DNA from: Candidatus Cloacimonadota bacterium
GTDB lineage: Bacteria > Cloacimonadota > Cloacimonadia > Cloacimonadales > JAIOQZ01
Length of the DNA stretch: 64,000 bases
Assembly: GCA_021108395.1 (NCBI GenBank)
Contig: JAIOQZ010000002.1
Location: forward strand, 1-64,000
Direction of reading: 5' to 3'
A program made the translations under genes and the position numbers. The notes beneath the pieces were generated by a model, which worked only from the letters and a program-made list of their open reading frames with translations, did not search any database and had not been told where the DNA came from. Each line of letters starts with the position of its first letter. Within the stretch, counting starts at the first letter, position 1. Shown here one piece after another: positions 41,677 to 53,613 of the stretch.

Positions 41677-42528
41677 ATGAAACTAATCATCACCGTGCTT
41701 GTTCTCGCCCTGCTGCTGGGGCTAACGTTTTTTCTCGTCAAGCGCCCTGAAGCTGACGGTGGACTGGTCATTACCTCGCCGGAGATGGCCGAGATTGTGG
41801 CGCTGGTGGCGGGTGTGGAGCCAATCGCCGCTGTGGTGGCGGAATGCGACTGGCCGCCTGCCATGCGCGAGCTGCCGCGTGTGGGCAGCTTTGGCAACGT
41901 CGAGCTGCAAGCCGTGGCCGCTTTGCGCCCCTCGCTGGTGTTCACGGCCTCACCATCGCAAGACGCCCTCACCGCCCGCCTCAACACGTTGGGCATAGCA
42001 GCCCAAAGCCTGCCGTTGCGCAGCGTGAACGACCTGCTGTCCGCTATGCGTCATGTGGGGGAGCTTACCGGCAATCCCGCCCGCGCCACCATCGTGGCAG
42101 ACAGCCTGGCCGAAGCCTTCGCGGCTGTTCGTGCCGACACGCTGTACGCCATGCGCGTCTATGTGGAGGTGAGCCCAGGATTCTGGACGACTTCCGGCGG
42201 CTCGCTGCTGGGCGAGGCAGTGCGTCTTGCCGGTGGCGCGGGCCTGTTCGAGAACGCCGACTGGGATTACGCCCAGGTGGCTCAGGCCGATGTCGTTATC
42301 GCCGACCCGGACGTAATCCTGGCGTTGTACCCAGGGGTTTCCGTCGCCGACATTGCGGCGCGCAAGGGGTGGTCGCGGGTGAGCGCAGTGCAAACTGGCC
42401 GCGTCTTCACAACGGATGACATTGACCCCGACCTGTTGGTGCGATGCGGGCCTCGCCTGCCTCTGGGCGTGGCATGTTTGAAAGCCTTGCTGCGTGGTGG
42501 GGAAGAGGCTGCACATGAAAGGCCTTAG
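41677..42528 (+). CDS. btuF: Periplasmic cobalamin/Fe-siderophore-type substrate-binding protein (BtuF-like)
   Basis: MAEIVALVAGVEPIAAVVAECDWPPAMRELPRVGSFGNVELQAVAALRPSLVFT; followed by FecCD permease. Confidence 0.78.
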   Translation: MKLIITVLVLALLLGLTFFLVKRPEADGGLVITSPEMAEIVALVAGVEPIAAVVAECDWPPAMRELPRVGSFGNVELQAVAALRPSLVFTASPSQDALTARLNTLGIAAQSLPLRSVNDLLSAMRHVGELTGNPARATIVADSLAEAFAAVRADTLYAMRVYVEVSPGFWTTSGGSLLGEAVRLAGGAGLFENADWDYAQVAQADVVIADPDVILALYPGVSVADIAARKGWSRVSAVQTGRVFTTDDIDPDLLVRCGPRLPLGVACLKALLRGGEEAAHERP

Positions 42529-43453
42529 GCTGGCCCTGCTGATTTTGCTGGCGCTGGCGGCCTGTGCTCTATACCTGTTTATCGGCGCTCCTTCCGGCTA
42601 CATCGTGGCGCAGTTTCTGGTGCCGCGTCTGCTGCTGGCGGTGATGGCGGGATTCGTGCTTGCGGGCACGGGCACTGTGTTTCAGGCGATGCTGGGCAAT
42701 CCCCTCGCCGATCCATACATTCTGGGCACGAGTTCGGGGGCGGCCCTGGGCGCAACTGTGGCCGTCGTTCTGGGTCTGTGGTGGGCAATGCCGCTGCTGG
42801 GGTTCATCGGGGCGCTGCTGAGTATGGCGCTCGTATGGCGGCTGGCGCAGTTTGGCGGATTTCAAACCACCCGCTTGCTGCTGGCGGGCATCATCGTCGG
42901 CATGTTTTTCTCGGCGGCCATATCGCTGCTGATGTACCTGAATCCCGACAAGCTCAACAGCATCGTCAACATCTTGCTGGGGCGTCTCGACCCTGTCTTT
43001 ACGGGCGCTTCATGGTCGCTGTTCCTGGTGGTGTTCGCTCTGTCGGGGGCGCTCATGGTCGTGCTGTTCGGGTTGAGCGAGCACCTGGCTGCGCTCACCG
43101 CCGGCGACCTCGTGGCCACAAATCTGGGCATCCGCGTACAGCGGCTGCGACTGTGGCTGTTTGTGCTCTGCTCGTTGCTGGTTGGGGTGACAGTGGCCTA
43201 TGCGGGCGTCATCGGGTTCGTGGGACTGGTGGTGCCGCACATGGCGCGTATGCTTTTCGGTTCACATCCACGCCGCAGTTTGCCTGCCGCCGCCATACTG
43301 GGGGCTGCGCTTCTCGTTCTCTGCGACTTCCTCGCCAGGCACGTGGCCGGCTGGATCGTTCCCGGCAGCGCGATGCAGATTCCTGTGGGGGTCATCACGG
43401 CGTTCCTCGGCTCACCTTTTTTCCTTTACATCATGGCTCGCTCCCGCCGATAG
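42515..43453 (+). CDS. btuC: FecCD/BtuC-type ABC transporter permease
   Basis: RLLLAVMAGFVLAGTGTVFQAMLGNPLADPYILGTSSGAALGA; VIGFVGLVVPHMARMLFG. Confidence 0.87.
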   Translation: MKGLRLALLILLALAACALYLFIGAPSGYIVAQFLVPRLLLAVMAGFVLAGTGTVFQAMLGNPLADPYILGTSSGAALGATVAVVLGLWWAMPLLGFIGALLSMALVWRLAQFGGFQTTRLLLAGIIVGMFFSAAISLLMYLNPDKLNSIVNILLGRLDPVFTGASWSLFLVVFALSGALMVVLFGLSEHLAALTAGDLVATNLGIRVQRLRLWLFVLCSLLVGVTVAYAGVIGFVGLVVPHMARMLFGSHPRRSLPAAAILGAALLVLCDFLARHVAGWIVPGSAMQIPVGVITAFLGSPFFLYIMARSRR

Positions 43454-43460
43454 TGCAGCC

Positions 43461-43946
43461 ATGAAGATAACACTTCCTGAAAGACTGACGGAATTCAAGC
43501 GTCACTGGAAGAGCTACGTGGTGCAAAGCTCTATGGCGTTCGCCACGCTTTTCGTCGTGCTCATTCTGTTGGGAGAGGGCCGCCTGGCCAACGTCGCCTC
43601 GCTGGGGGCGTCGGCGTTCATCGTGTTTGCCATGCCCACCGAGATTACCGGCCAGACGCGCAACCTCGTGGGCGGACAGTTCATCGGGATGTTCATCGGT
43701 GCGCTCATTGGCCTGGCGCCCATCGAGAGCCATGCTCTGGGCGTGGTGATGACAGCGCTGGCGGTGGGACTGACCATGTTTGTGATGGTGGTGGTGGACA
43801 TGGAGCATCCACCGGCTTGCGGCACGGCTCTGGGAATGGCGGTGTATGGTTGGGAATGGCGCGCTCTGGGCACAATCGCTGCCGCGGTGGTGCTGCTGGC
43901 GGTCATCCACCGAGTGTTCAAGCCCTACCTGCGCGACCTGGTGTAG
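43461..43946 (+). CDS. HPP family integral membrane protein
   Basis: SLGASAFIVFAMPTEI...DMEHPPACGTALGMAVYG; starts 7 nt after btuC stop. Confidence 0.85.
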   Translation: MKITLPERLTEFKRHWKSYVVQSSMAFATLFVVLILLGEGRLANVASLGASAFIVFAMPTEITGQTRNLVGGQFIGMFIGALIGLAPIESHALGVVMTALAVGLTMFVMVVVDMEHPPACGTALGMAVYGWEWRALGTIAAAVVLLAVIHRVFKPYLRDLV

Positions 43947-43950
43947 CCAC

Positions 43951-44577
43951 CTACATATTGATTTCTATCGACTTGACAGCCTCGAACTTCTCGAGGTGCT
44001 CACGAATCTCCTCGGCAATATTGTCTCGATACTGGTCGAACTTGGGTACGCCCAAGTCGATAATTACCTCACCGTTCTCGAAGCCCACGTACTTGACCAT
44101 CTTCAGAGTGACAATATCCTCGCCCACTTGGGGATAGATAACCTTGCGCAGCTCATCCAGAATCGCTTCCTTGTCAAAGCCGCTGCGCTTTGCCTGGCCG
44201 TGCCGTTCTTTATAGTTGCGGATGGCGGCATGCAGCGTATCGACCGCCAGCACCGAGCAGTGCATCTTTTGCGGCGGCAGGCCGTCAAGCTCGGCGGCGG
44301 CGTCCTTCCAGTGGATTTCGCTCGCCTCGTCCAACGTTTTGCCCAGCGCCATGTCGGTGATGATGGAGCCGGTGGCGATGTTGGAGGCGCAACCGTAGCT
44401 CTGGAACTTGATGTCCTCTATTATCAGCGTCTCAGGGTTTACCCGAAGATGCAGCGTTACCTGGTCGCCGCAGGCGGGGCTGCCTTCGGTCGCCTCACCA
44501 TCAGGATTCTCGATCTTGCCCACGTTGTGCGGCTTCATGAAATGATCGAGCACTTTCTGCGAATACTGCATTTGCAC
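43951..44577 (-). CDS. NifU/IscU-like Fe-S scaffold fused to MIP18/DUF59-like C-terminal domain
   Basis: VGKIENPDGEATEGSPACGDQVTL, SYGCASNIATGSIITDMALG; C-terminal DELRKVIYPQVGEDIVTLKMVKYVGFENGEVIIDL. Confidence 0.85.
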   Translation of the reverse strand: MQMQYSQKVLDHFMKPHNVGKIENPDGEATEGSPACGDQVTLHLRVNPETLIIEDIKFQSYGCASNIATGSIITDMALGKTLDEASEIHWKDAAAELDGLPPQKMHCSVLAVDTLHAAIRNYKERHGQAKRSGFDKEAILDELRKVIYPQVGEDIVTLKMVKYVGFENGEVIIDLGVPKFDQYRDNIAEEIREHLEKFEAVKSIEINM

Positions 44578-44591
44578 CTCTCAGCGTCGTG

Positions 44592-45770
44592 TTATTCATT
44601 TTCAGGATTGTAGAGCGGACTGCGCCGCCGCAACTCTGCCACAATGCCCGCCAGCTTCTCCACTGTCAAATCGATTTCTTCGCGGGTGTTGTAACGGGAC
44701 AGCGTGAACTTCATCGAGCCGTGCGACTGCTCGTGAGTGCGCCCCATCGCAATCATCACGTAGTTGGTCTTCAGTCCCTGCGAAGCGCAGGCGCTGCCGG
44801 TGGCCACCACGATGTCTTGCAGGCTCAACATCATCATCATCGCCTCGCCCTCGATGTAGTCGAAGCTGACGTTGATGTTGTGGCTGATGCGCTCCTCGCC
44901 ACGCGGGCCGTTCAGCATCGTGTGTGGGATGGCGCTCTCGATGCGATCCAGCAGGTAGTCGGACAGAGCGCGGATGTGGGCGATGGCGCCCGGCAGGTCG
45001 TCAAAGGCCAGCTCGACGGCGCGGGCGAACCCGGCCATCCCCGCGATGCTGACGCCGCCGGTTTCGAGGCTGTCCACGCGGTTGATGCCGTGCATCATCT
45101 GGGCGAGGTGAACCCCTTTGCGCACATACAGCGCGCCCACGCCCTGCGGACCGTGTATCTTGTGCGCGGAGACGGTCAGCATGTCGATGGCGGGGTCGTT
45201 GACGTCGATGGGCATGCGGGCGTAGGCCTGCCCGGCGTCCACCAGCAGCTTTGCCTGGCTGCCGGCGGCGTCGAGGATGCCACGCATGGCGCGCACGTCC
45301 TGGATCGTACCGACGGTGTGGTTGGCTAACGTGGTCATCACCAGGATGGTGTCCTCGCGCAGGCTGTCGCGCAGCTCGTCGAGGTTGACGCGGCCGTCGC
45401 GGTCGCAGCTAATGTAGCTCACCTCAAAGCCGCTCTGCTCGAAGAAGGCGGCGTTGGTGAGGATGTCGGGGTAATCGACCACCGAGCAGATGATGTGGCT
45501 GCCGTTGGCGGCGTTGGCGGTGACGAACCCCTTGATGGCGAGGTTGTTGGCGCTGGTGCCGCCCCGCGTGAAGTGAATCTCGCCCGGGCGCGCGCCCAGG
45601 CTGTCGGCCACAGTGCGCCGCCAGTTGTCGATGTCGGCGGCGATGACCGAGCCGTGCCGCACATAGTTGGCCGGGAACCAGAACTTCTCGCGCATGTATG
45701 GCAGCATGGCCTCGATGACTTCCGGGGCCGGCTGCGAGGTGACGCAGTTGTCGAAATATATCAGAGCCAT
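44592..45770 (-). CDS. Cysteine desulfurase (NifS/IscS-like)
   Basis: TVSAHKIHGPQGVGALYVRKG (PLP Lys), VATGSACASQGLKTNYVM (active-site Cys loop); start at ATG 45770. Confidence 0.88.
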   Translation of the reverse strand: MALIYFDNCVTSQPAPEVIEAMLPYMREKFWFPANYVRHGSVIAADIDNWRRTVADSLGARPGEIHFTRGGTSANNLAIKGFVTANAANGSHIICSVVDYPDILTNAAFFEQSGFEVSYISCDRDGRVNLDELRDSLREDTILVMTTLANHTVGTIQDVRAMRGILDAAGSQAKLLVDAGQAYARMPIDVNDPAIDMLTVSAHKIHGPQGVGALYVRKGVHLAQMMHGINRVDSLETGGVSIAGMAGFARAVELAFDDLPGAIAHIRALSDYLLDRIESAIPHTMLNGPRGEERISHNINVSFDYIEGEAMMMMLSLQDIVVATGSACASQGLKTNYVMIAMGRTHEQSHGSMKFTLSRYNTREEIDLTVEKLAGIVAELRRRSPLYNPENE

Positions 45771-45973
45771 TGTTGTCTCCTTGTTCTTCTGCACAAAAAG
45801 TATGATACTCACACTTGAACGCAAGTTATTTTTTGTGCGATTTTAATTTTGACGGTGTCAAATAAAATGAGCGCTGTTCGGTGGCGGCGCTCAGGGGTGG
45901 ACATTCAGGGAATGGCTTGACAGCGTGGGGGAGAGATGGTTGGTTTGCGGCACTATCTGCTGGAGGAAACTAT

Positions 45974-47393: not shown

Positions 47394-48182
47394 ATGATTG
47401 AACTGGAAGGCGTGAAGGCAGGTTATGGCGCGCTGCCGGTGCTTCAGGGCATCAACCTGACACTGCGGCGCGGGGAGTTCTGCGCCGTGCTGGGTCCCAA
47501 CGGCGCGGGCAAATCGACGCTGCTGAAGGCCATCATCGGCTGGCTGGGACTGCAAGACGGCAGCATCCGCGTTGATGGCCAGCCGCTCGAGGCATGGTCG
47601 CGGCGCGAACTGGCCAAGCGTGTGGCGCTCATCCCGCAGGAGCTCGCCCTGCCGTTCGACCACACCGTGCATGACCTCGTGCTCATGGGCCGCTTCCCTT
47701 ACCTGCGCATGTGGCAGAGCTATTCCCCGGACGACCTCGAAGCCGTGCAGCGCGTGCTCGAACGGCTCGAGCTGGACGACAAACGCGACCGCCCGTACTC
47801 GCAGCTCAGTGGCGGCGAGCAGCGCCGTGTGAGCATCGCCCGCGCCCTGGCGCAGGACGCCGACGCCATCCTGCTGGACGAAAGCCTGGCCAACCTCGAC
47901 CTCAACCACCAGCTCGATCTCGTGCGTCTGCTGCGTCACATACAGTCAGTCGGTGAGCGGCTGGTGGTGCTGGTGTCGCACAATCTCAACCTCGCTGCCG
48001 CCTGCGCCGACCGCCTGGTGCTGCTGCACGAGGGCCGCGTTCTGGCCGACGGCCCCCCCCGCGAGGCGCTCACCCAGGACAACCTGCGCACTGTCTATGG
48101 CGTCGATGTGCCGGTGACGGTGGATGACGCCGGCGTGCCCGCCTTCGCCTACCCGCCACTGTCTTCGCGTCCCCGTCACTGA
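47394..48182 (+). CDS. btuD: Cobalamin/siderophore-type ABC transporter ATPase (BtuD-like)
   Basis: VLGPNGAGKSTLLKAIIGWL Walker A, LSGGEQRRVSIARALAQ signature, ILLDESLANLDL Walker B. Confidence 0.9.
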   Translation: MIELEGVKAGYGALPVLQGINLTLRRGEFCAVLGPNGAGKSTLLKAIIGWLGLQDGSIRVDGQPLEAWSRRELAKRVALIPQELALPFDHTVHDLVLMGRFPYLRMWQSYSPDDLEAVQRVLERLELDDKRDRPYSQLSGGEQRRVSIARALAQDADAILLDESLANLDLNHQLDLVRLLRHIQSVGERLVVLVSHNLNLAAACADRLVLLHEGRVLADGPPREALTQDNLRTVYGVDVPVTVDDAGVPAFAYPPLSSRPRH

Positions 48183-51811: not shown

Positions 51812-51836
51812 GGGGCTGTTTCGGCGGCCCCTTTTT
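51812..51836 (+). terminator. Rho-independent terminator
   Basis: GGGGC...GCCCC followed by TTTTT just after the stop at 51790. Confidence 0.55.
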
Positions 51837-51968: not shown

Positions 51969-52079
51969 TATTTCTTGACGCGATTCCACGCACTGACAAT
52001 CTGCCATCAGACGGACACGGTTCACCTATAAGTCAAATAATGCCGCATGGTTTACGAGTAGCGCTAAACCAATTGCATT

Positions 52080-52230
52080 ATTTGTTGACGGTGCAAAGAT
52101 GGAATCCCGTGAAAACCGGGAGCAACCCCCGTTACTGTGAAAGGCGACGAAAGCCCAGCGCCACTGCTCGAACGAGCGGGAAGGCGGGTGAGTAGGCTGG
52201 AGCCTTGAGCCAGGAAACATGCCGTGTCTG
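52080..52230 (+). ncRNA. Cobalamin (B12) riboswitch
   Basis: AAAGATGGAATCCCGTGAAAACCGGGAGCAACCCCCGTTACTGTGA ... GCGCCACTG ... GAGCCAGGAAACATGCC matches the B12-riboswitch consensus. Confidence 0.92.
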
Positions 52231-52341
52231 CGAGTTTACCGCTTTCGGAGGGAAGGATGGGTAGATTGCGGCCACGCCGCGCATTTCCGGCGGATTCTCC
52301 GTCGCCCACATCCCTTCTTGCGGACAAAGCAAGGAGGACTC

Positions 52342-53613
52342 ATGCGAACATTCACCGTTACCATCGTCATGCTGACGTTGCTCGCCACGCTTCACGCTCA
52401 TCTCTTCGTGCTCAACTCGGAGAGCCAGACACTGTCCCGTCTCGACATCGACGACTGGAGCATCGACAACGCCTTTGCCACCATCGGGCAATACCCCTAT
52501 GCCGCCCCAAACCGCATCGCGGTGCACGACGAGACGGCCTGGATTACCGTCACCTACGAGAACAGCATCCAGGGCATCCCGCTCGACGACGGCGGAGCGG
52601 GCGCCGTTATCTATCTCGAAGACAGCGCCGCGCCCTATGACATCATCACGCACGAGGGTATGGCTTACGTCACCGGCGGCACCAGCAACAAGGTCTATCG
52701 CGTTGACCTTGACGCGCTTGCGGTGACCGGCAGCCTCGACGTTGGCCGCTCGCCGCAGGGAATGGTAGTTCACGACGGCCTGCTGTATGTGTGCAACACC
52801 GGCTTCCGCCTCGACACCTGGACATACGACCCCGGCACCGTCACCGTCATTGAGATGGACGGCTTCACGGCCATTGACACGCTGGATTGCGCCACCAACC
52901 CACAAGTGGCAGCCGTGGTTGGCGACGAACTCCACGTCGTCTGCACGGGTGACTATGCCACCGAGTTCGGACGCATCGACATCTTCGGCCTCACCGGCCA
53001 TGAGTTTCTGGAGTCGCTCGACACCGGCGGCTCGCCCGGGCGCGTTTCTGTATGCGGCGACAGCGTTTTTCTGGGCAACGTCTGGCCGGCGGGAGTGTTC
53101 GTTTATTCCGCCAGCGAGCGCGAACTGATCTACACTCCCGACACATCTCCCTACACCGGCGGCACCGACGTGTATGCGCAGGATGGGCGGTTGACGGTGC
53201 TCGACGCCGGCGATTTCGTGCAGAACTCGCATGTGCGCGTTTACAGCCTCGCCGACAACTCGCTGCTGGCCGATGCCACCGCCGGCGTGGGCGCAGTGGA
53301 TGTGAAAGCCTGGAGCGCTCCTGTGAGCGTGAACGACGACACATACACGCCTGGCGAGACGTTGTTGCAGGTGTGGCCCAACCCTGTGCGAGAGAGTTGC
53401 CGCATCGCTTTTTCACCCGCGTCTGGAAGCGGGGCAGAGGCGGCGGTGTTCAACGTTCGCGGGCAGATGGTGCGTCAGTTGCAACTCGATGATGGCCGTG
53501 GCCGGTGGGACGGACGAGATTCATTGGGACGGCTATGCCCCAGCGGGGTGTATCTTGTGCGGGTGAAAACGGGAGAAAGCAGCGCGGCTAAGCGACTGAC
53601 ACTGCTGCGGTAG
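52342..53613 (+). CDS. Secreted YncE/BtuG-like beta-propeller protein with C-terminal sorting domain
   Basis: AAGGAGG RBS; repeated propeller-like blades (GMAYVTGGTSNKVYRVDLDALAVTGSLDVGRSPQGMVVHDGLLYVCNTG); C-terminal LLQVWPNPVRESCRIAFS...RWDGRDSLGRLCPSGVYLVRVKTGESSAAKRLTLLR; B12 riboswitch upstream. Confidence 0.85.
   Translation: MRTFTVTIVMLTLLATLHAHLFVLNSESQTLSRLDIDDWSIDNAFATIGQYPYAAPNRIAVHDETAWITVTYENSIQGIPLDDGGAGAVIYLEDSAAPYDIITHEGMAYVTGGTSNKVYRVDLDALAVTGSLDVGRSPQGMVVHDGLLYVCNTGFRLDTWTYDPGTVTVIEMDGFTAIDTLDCATNPQVAAVVGDELHVVCTGDYATEFGRIDIFGLTGHEFLESLDTGGSPGRVSVCGDSVFLGNVWPAGVFVYSASERELIYTPDTSPYTGGTDVYAQDGRLTVLDAGDFVQNSHVRVYSLADNSLLADATAGVGAVDVKAWSAPVSVNDDTYTPGETLLQVWPNPVRESCRIAFSPASGSGAEAAVFNVRGQMVRQLQLDDGRGRWDGRDSLGRLCPSGVYLVRVKTGESSAAKRLTLLR

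Follow-up and report, generated by a model that had tools for sequence, protein, structure and literature searches.

A BtuG-like β-propeller gene with a T9SS sorting tail behind a cobalamin riboswitch: a candidate corrinoid-capture protein of Cloacimonadota

In the genome of a Candidatus Cloacimonadota bacterium, a gene for a protein with a signal peptide and a predicted seven-bladed, BtuG-like β-propeller fold lies directly behind a cobalamin riboswitch and downstream of genes resembling btuF, btuC, btuD and btuB. We consider it likely that its product, by the mechanism set out below, is displayed on the cell surface, captures corrinoids in the manner of BtuG and acts together with the BtuB-type receptor encoded nearby. 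The fold, the gene linkage and the regulation together suggest that the propeller may bind B12 and serve as a lid on the receptor.

Results and discussion

Organisation of the locus

The features found in the window, i.e. the whole 64-kb stretch of DNA that was analysed, are collected in Table 1. The first-pass annotation of this DNA had described the propeller gene as lying downstream of btuFC, btuD and btuB, and all four btu-like genes are indeed found upstream of it on the same strand.

Table 1. Coordinates of the features at the btu-propeller locus
Feature	Position	Strand	Evidence or remark
BtuF-like periplasmic binding protein	41677..42528	+	Peripla_BP_2; best NCBIfam match BtuF, below cut-off; start set at ATG 41677
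BtuC-like permease (FecCD family)	42494..43453	+	PF01032, E 9e-74; best NCBIfam match BtuC, below cut-off
BtuD-like ABC ATPase	47394..48182	+	ABC_tran; corrinoid/heme ABC ATPase families best, below cut-off
BtuB-like TonB-dependent cobalamin receptor, 697 aa	48184..50277	+	PDB, Foldseek and NCBIfam matches
DUF7901 protein with T9SS sorting tail, 432 aa	50492..51790	+	PF25470, E 5e-32; TIGR04183, 25.2 bits
Terminator-like hairpin between the DUF7901 gene and the riboswitch, parting their transcripts	51812..51831	+	Pattern scan, weak
Cobalamin riboswitch aptamer RF00174, complete	52032..52240	+	94.8 bits, E 2.6e-22, model positions 1-189 of 189
Antisequestor pairing (predicted)	52247..52317 (arms 52247-52253 and 52311-52317)	+	MFE fold of 52235-52325, z -2.96
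Shine-Dalgarno sequestor hairpin	arms 52313-52321 and 52329-52337	+	9 bp, 7-nt loop
BtuG-like seven-bladed β-propeller (predicted) with sorting tail, 423 aa	52342..53613	+	ATG 52342
T9SS type A C-terminal sorting domain (residues 344-419)	53371..53598	+	TIGR04183, 32.6 bits, cut-off 23

Among TonB-dependent receptors, the 697-residue protein is nearest to BtuB. In PDB sequence comparison BtuB2 and BtuB3 of B. theta come first, followed by E. coli BtuB, and a profile of its family scores BtuB1-3 of B. thetaiotaomicron higher than E. coli BtuB and far higher than any siderophore receptor. The top seven Foldseek matches of its model are all BtuB chains (BtuB3, BtuB2 and E. coli BtuB), and the best NCBIfam match is TIGR01779 at an E-value of 1.2e-17, which is below the cut-off.

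The genome encodes B12-dependent methionine synthase MetH and methylmalonyl-CoA mutase, both assigned from a B12-binding domain and from how the reading frames look; CbiC and CobS were not found in it. Since B12 enzymes are present and these two proteins are absent, B12 is used and probably imported rather than made, and the organism is probably unable to make it.

Between the receptor gene and the riboswitch lies a gene for a secreted DUF7901 protein that the first-pass annotation did not mention. No DUF7901 gene separates btuB from the propeller in the other surveyed riboswitch or btu loci, and the protein probably stands outside the B12 system. Terminator-like sites in the region number three, with 2.4 expected by chance, and the one listed in Table 1, upstream of the riboswitch, is the nearest. 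The stretch between btuC and btuD (43482-45824) encodes a TM_HPP membrane protein, and its minus strand carries NifU-like and cysteine-desulfurase-like genes. An apparent minus-strand NifU gene occupies the same position in at least one relative (L130), a conserved and unexplained arrangement.

Riboswitch and leader folding

A strong B12 riboswitch had been noticed ahead of the propeller gene from the letters of the sequence, and a cmsearch-type check confirms it, with a score about three times the RF00174 gathering threshold (94.8 against 31.5 bits). RF00174 is the sole Rfam family above threshold inside the window. The region as first drawn, from 52080, left out 48 bases at the 5' end of the aptamer, which begins at 52032. 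A longer reading frame starting at 52219 was rejected as the gene start as it begins within the aptamer.

An Rfam scan of the genome, which is estimated to be 98 % complete, showed this to be its only cobalamin riboswitch; none precedes any of the btuF-, btuC-, btuD- or btuB-like genes in the window and genome scans, as the first-pass annotation had noted for btuF and btuD. Because the downstream neighbour gene lies on the opposite strand, the riboswitch governs the propeller gene alone. That btuB in this genome is not under riboswitch control is a point against our main reading, and it marks a difference from BtuG, as here it is the propeller gene, rather than btuB, that carries the riboswitch.

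The leader can adopt two mutually exclusive predicted folds of nearly equal energy, one of which masks the Shine-Dalgarno sequence. Over the whole leader, the antisequestor fold has an energy of -46.3 kcal/mol against -45.2 kcal/mol with the sequestor forced. The Shine-Dalgarno sequence AAGGAGG (52331-52337) falls inside the 3' arm of the sequestor hairpin, whose local fold reaches -15.4 kcal/mol (z -3.0), and a fully complementary partner for it appears in just 0.7 % of shuffles. An equivalent hairpin of different sequence is found in many relatives, where GUUCAUCUC pairs with GAGGUGAAC. Control by transcription termination was considered and set aside, since a pattern scan found no terminator-like site from riboswitch to gene and a Shine-Dalgarno sequestor is present instead. 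From these modelled structures we infer an OFF switch, in which B12 would repress translation of the propeller through sequestration of the Shine-Dalgarno sequence. When intracellular B12 is low, the riboswitch would keep that sequence free and the propeller would be translated; when B12 is plentiful, the masking hairpin would be favoured.

Linkage of the propeller to B12 genes across Cloacimonadota

The propeller was detected in 104 of 125 Cloacimonadota genomes, nearly always as one copy, and in 67 of the 71 good ones; a cobalamin riboswitch was detected in 101 of the 125. The first gene after the 115 riboswitch sites is btuF in 52 cases, the propeller in 37, btuB in 15, btuD in three and another gene in five, the remaining three sites being cut by contig ends. 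Thus 107 of the 112 readable sites open into btuF, btuB, btuD or the propeller. The operon orders seen are btuF-btuC-btuD-btuB-propeller, btuD-btuB-propeller, btuB-propeller and the propeller alone.

In 58 genomes the propeller lies directly behind a riboswitch or within a riboswitch-led operon. Forty further genomes comprise 31 with btuB immediately upstream of the propeller, three where the locus is cut off and six with neither. The linkage of riboswitch, propeller and BtuB that the first-pass annotation had proposed to look for in relatives is therefore a feature of the phylum, the propeller being tied to B12 genes in 89 of 95 readable cases. In the six exceptions, five from one genus plus G051, the propeller lies away from btuB and no riboswitch was found, although the phylum-wide riboswitch search used stricter filters and these cases may conceal weak switches. 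For one of them (G001), direct cmscan of the fetched stretch around the propeller found no riboswitch.

Some further observations were made at individual loci. In G001 a CRISPR array with 25 or more repeats is found close to the propeller gene (L235). In G051 and G068 (L121 and L122) a riboswitch precedes, as judged by eye, a gene for an ATP-grasp, succinyl-CoA-synthetase-like protein and a DMT-type permease, which are not obvious B12 genes. At another G051 locus (L041:1-940, minus strand) the riboswitch leads into a secreted protein in which 'WAGxGSxQ..LVIDF..WGY' motifs recur and for which Pfam gave no family, possibly a further B12-regulated surface protein. In G025 (L125) the gene behind the riboswitch, again judged by eye, is ribonucleotide reductase-like with an ATP-cone start and is perhaps a B12-independent backup.

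Linkage beyond the phylum

When the propeller alignment was searched against one genome per species, blind to gene context, relatives were found in records labelled Zixiibacteriota, GN15, WOR-3, Calditrichota, KSB1, Marinimicrobia and LCP-89. A btuB-like gene lies ahead of the propeller in all 24 readable loci outside Cloacimonadota, and in 13 non-Cloacimonadota loci a cobalamin riboswitch precedes the pair. The pair is thus present in some seven groups of phylum rank outside Bacteroidota, mostly uncultured ones, and is near-universal in Cloacimonadota; labels of metagenome bins may err (one record is titled Armatimonadetes), and it is the number of groups that makes the spread firm.

Fold of the propeller and its relationship to BtuG

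The protein consists of a signal peptide (residues 1-19), the propeller (residues 20-325) and the sorting domain. The AlphaFold2 model has a mean pLDDT of 89.3, and its 28 strands form seven blades with N-C closure, in keeping with the earlier description of a β-propeller with a signal peptide. The proposed resemblance to BtuG was examined by Foldseek against the PDB. The archaeal YVTN propeller 1l0q came first and BtuG1, BtuG2 and BtuG3 occupied ranks 2-17, with E-values from 4e-16 to 1.5e-14 and target TM-scores of 0.73-0.80 except for the longer BtuG1 chain (8blw). E. coli YncE was placed below the BtuGs (E 2e-10, TM 0.67). The family profile gave the same order, 1l0q being followed by BtuG1 (E 1e-21), BtuG2 and BtuG3 (1e-17 to 6e-16) and YncE (9e-6). 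An hhalign comparison of the family with BtuG2 kept 270 columns in register at a probability of 96 %. The Pfam family PF16819, which BtuG2 matches at an E-value of 2e-20, is touched by 15 of the 34 propeller family members.

That the top match in both fold and profile is a generic archaeal propeller speaks against our main reading. It agrees, together with weak matches to the YncE and YVTN families, with the notion of a generic YncE/YVTN surface protein that stands behind a riboswitch by chance, the archaeal 1l0q being an S-layer propeller. We regard this notion as extremely improbable, as it is contradicted by the linkage to riboswitch and btuB throughout the phylum and across phyla, and YncE falls far below BtuG in both sequence profile and fold. 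On the same ranking and linkage, an assignment as generic YncE was rejected. E. coli YncE (3vgz) and 1l0q share the general propeller fold and are not tied to B12.

Pairwise searches give weaker signals. BlastP of the propeller against BtuG2 gave an E-value of 0.002, and the best phmmer E-value against BtuG1 and BtuG3 was 3e-5; identity in the Foldseek alignments to BtuG, a protein of a different phylum, is about 15-17 %. The kinship is visible through profiles or folds only. Published work defines BtuG by a BlastP E-value below 1e-10 to BtuG1, BtuG2 or BtuG3 (PMC6143338). The propeller of the window, with its E-value of 0.002 to BtuG2 and with no lipobox cysteine in its signal peptide (MRTFTVTIVMLTLLATLHAHLF), is thus not a BtuG by that definition. 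Since the pocket aromatics of BtuG2 are for the most part not kept here (see below), 'analogue of BtuG', the wording of the first-pass annotation, is better supported than 'is a BtuG'. The analogy draws on the fold ranks, the linkage to B12 genes and a receptor nearest to the BtuBs of the BtuBG complexes.

BtuG of Bacteroides (BtuG1, BtuG2 and BtuG3; BT1954; PF16819) is likewise an exported, acidic seven-bladed propeller encoded beside btuB at loci with cobalamin riboswitches; here btuB is also a neighbour, with one gene between it and the riboswitch. Its defining traits include femtomolar corrinoid binding and a stable complex with BtuB, and it carries a lipobox and LES where the window propeller has a T9SS sorting tail. 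In the BtuBG complexes (8blw, 8bmx, 8p97 and 8p98; Nat Commun 2023, PMC10404256) both partners are solved relatives of the genes described here. The lid would here be held by a T9SS tail or sorting product rather than a lipid, and the pair is known from sequence and single-chain models. BtuH and BtuJ/DUF4465 of Bacteroides are riboswitch-regulated surface B12-binding accessories too (PMC8941943, PMC13398666), although they belong to other families and the window propeller matches neither in Pfam or NCBIfam. One published paper places PF16819 propellers often near DUF4465 genes and the DUF4465 family in eight clades.

Candidate binding face

Pocket aromatics of BtuG2 named in PMC10404256 are Trp194, Trp272, Tyr316, Tyr335 and Tyr239. 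The position of Tyr335 is aromatic here as well, with Phe in the window propeller and Trp in the majority of relatives. There is no conservation at the positions of Trp272, Tyr316 and Tyr239, and the alignment at Trp194 is ambiguous. That most of these aromatics are not conserved weighs against our main reading, and corrinoid binding, if present, would use a residue set partly different from that of BtuG2.

Conservation is concentrated on one loop face. Of 101 positions in or at the D-A and B-C loops, 26 reach a conservation of 90 % or more; of 71 in the A-B and C-D loops, 3 do, and the difference in mean conservation was reached by none of 20,000 permutations, although part of it may reflect the structural YVTN motif. 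By sequence position, the named pocket residues of BtuG2 fall in the D-A and B-C loops too. The propeller part carries a net charge of -31, compared with -15 for BtuG2 by the same count; strong acidity has been reported for BtuG2.

Loss of the pocket aromatics would also suit a B12-regulated accessory of BtuB that binds no corrinoid and acts as a plug, a gating cap or a binder of some other ligand, and the conserved face might equally be a contact face for BtuB. Such a role seems very unlikely to us, given that the nearest solved structures besides one generic propeller are corrinoid-binding BtuGs, that the strong negative charge is as in BtuG2, and that it is hard to see why the propeller alone should be under riboswitch control if it has no part in B12 handling.

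Sorting tail, secretion and anchoring

The first-pass annotation had described the C-terminus as a FlgD-like sorting domain. A sorting domain is present, but the T9SS type A model TIGR04183 fits better and the name FlgD-like was dropped. Pfam Por_Secre_tail scores 26.8 on the window propeller, just below its cut-off of 27 and ahead of the weaker FlgD_ig match, and is found in 32 of the 34 aligned Cloacimonadota members, the other two being cut short. The genome encodes the SprA translocon (496 bits) and the PorU sortase (541 bits), along with about 140 comparable T9SS tails. The earlier idea that a sorting domain replaces the lipid as anchor agrees with a TIGR04183 score above cut-off and with the presence of SprA and PorU, and the tail together with these secretion genes suggests a surface location for the propeller.

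Relatives differ in their anchors. Propellers of Calditrichia and Marinimicrobia are lipoproteins with no sorting tail, and tail-less lipoprotein propellers stand beside btuB at several loci of other phyla (L198, L202, L211, L219, L223 and L228). At WOR-3 loci tandem propellers follow btuB, one with a lipobox and no tail and the other T9SS-tailed; such a tandem pair was seen at L198, L202 and L211, which come from WOR-3 and one further bin. Some propellers of Zixibacteria/GN15 (L209 and L220) end in two dockerin-like repeats (GDVNGD...DLSD...LVN), which at an E-value of 0.01 were recognised by neither Pfam nor NCBIfam for L209 and not by NCBIfam for L220. In the tree, whose automatic anchor labels are approximate and in which the branch to BtuG2 is very long, the lipoproteins of the two groups fall into distinct clades with good support, nested among tailed proteins. 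Since anchors interchange among relatives, surface retention appears to be a selected trait.

T9SS cargo may be attached to the cell or released. With no lipid anchor on the window propeller, the protein might accordingly be exported by the T9SS as a free or loosely held scavenger that, like a hemophore, binds corrinoids away from the cell and brings them back to BtuB, with no lid. The propeller gene often stands behind a separate riboswitch of its own, away from btuB, as at 37 sites, so that a fixed stoichiometry with BtuB would not be enforced. This reading is nonetheless rather unlikely in our view, because the btuB-adjacent propeller of other phyla is a tail-less lipoprotein, which points to retention at the cell, and because the linkage of btuB and propeller is tight, holding at 24 of 24 loci outside the phylum.

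Under the reading we prefer, a lid working with BtuB, the signal peptide would take the propeller across the inner membrane and the T9SS would move it across the outer membrane by means of its C-terminal sorting domain. At the surface, the propeller would catch corrinoids on the conserved loop face and pass them to BtuB, probably as a lid; BtuF and BtuCD would then complete the import.

Conclusions

BtuG and capped TonB-dependent transporters are stated in two papers (PMC6143338, PMC10404256) to be confined to Bacteroidetes. No report of BtuG outside Bacteroidetes is apparent in the titles and abstracts of the literature that mentions it, and the propeller gene is not mentioned in the accessible portions of the Cloacimonadota literature on B12 or T9SS. 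The device described here resembles the B12-catching system reported only from Bacteroidetes, with a different anchor to the cell.

We judge the chances to be about even that propeller lids on BtuB, far from being an invention of Bacteroidetes, are widespread in the whole FCB group and perhaps ancestral to it, with interchangeable anchors, namely a T9SS tail, a lipid or a dockerin-like tail. Cloacimonadota are common in anaerobic digesters, where corrinoid supply matters. If the lid reading is true, the T9SS would deliver lids to TonB-dependent transporters. If the propeller binds B12, vitamin capture by propellers would be of old standing and broadly distributed in the FCB group, and lids for nutrient uptake would number among the cargo of the T9SS. 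The analysis also offers a candidate function for a large group of proteins now named just YncE-like or T9SS-tailed.
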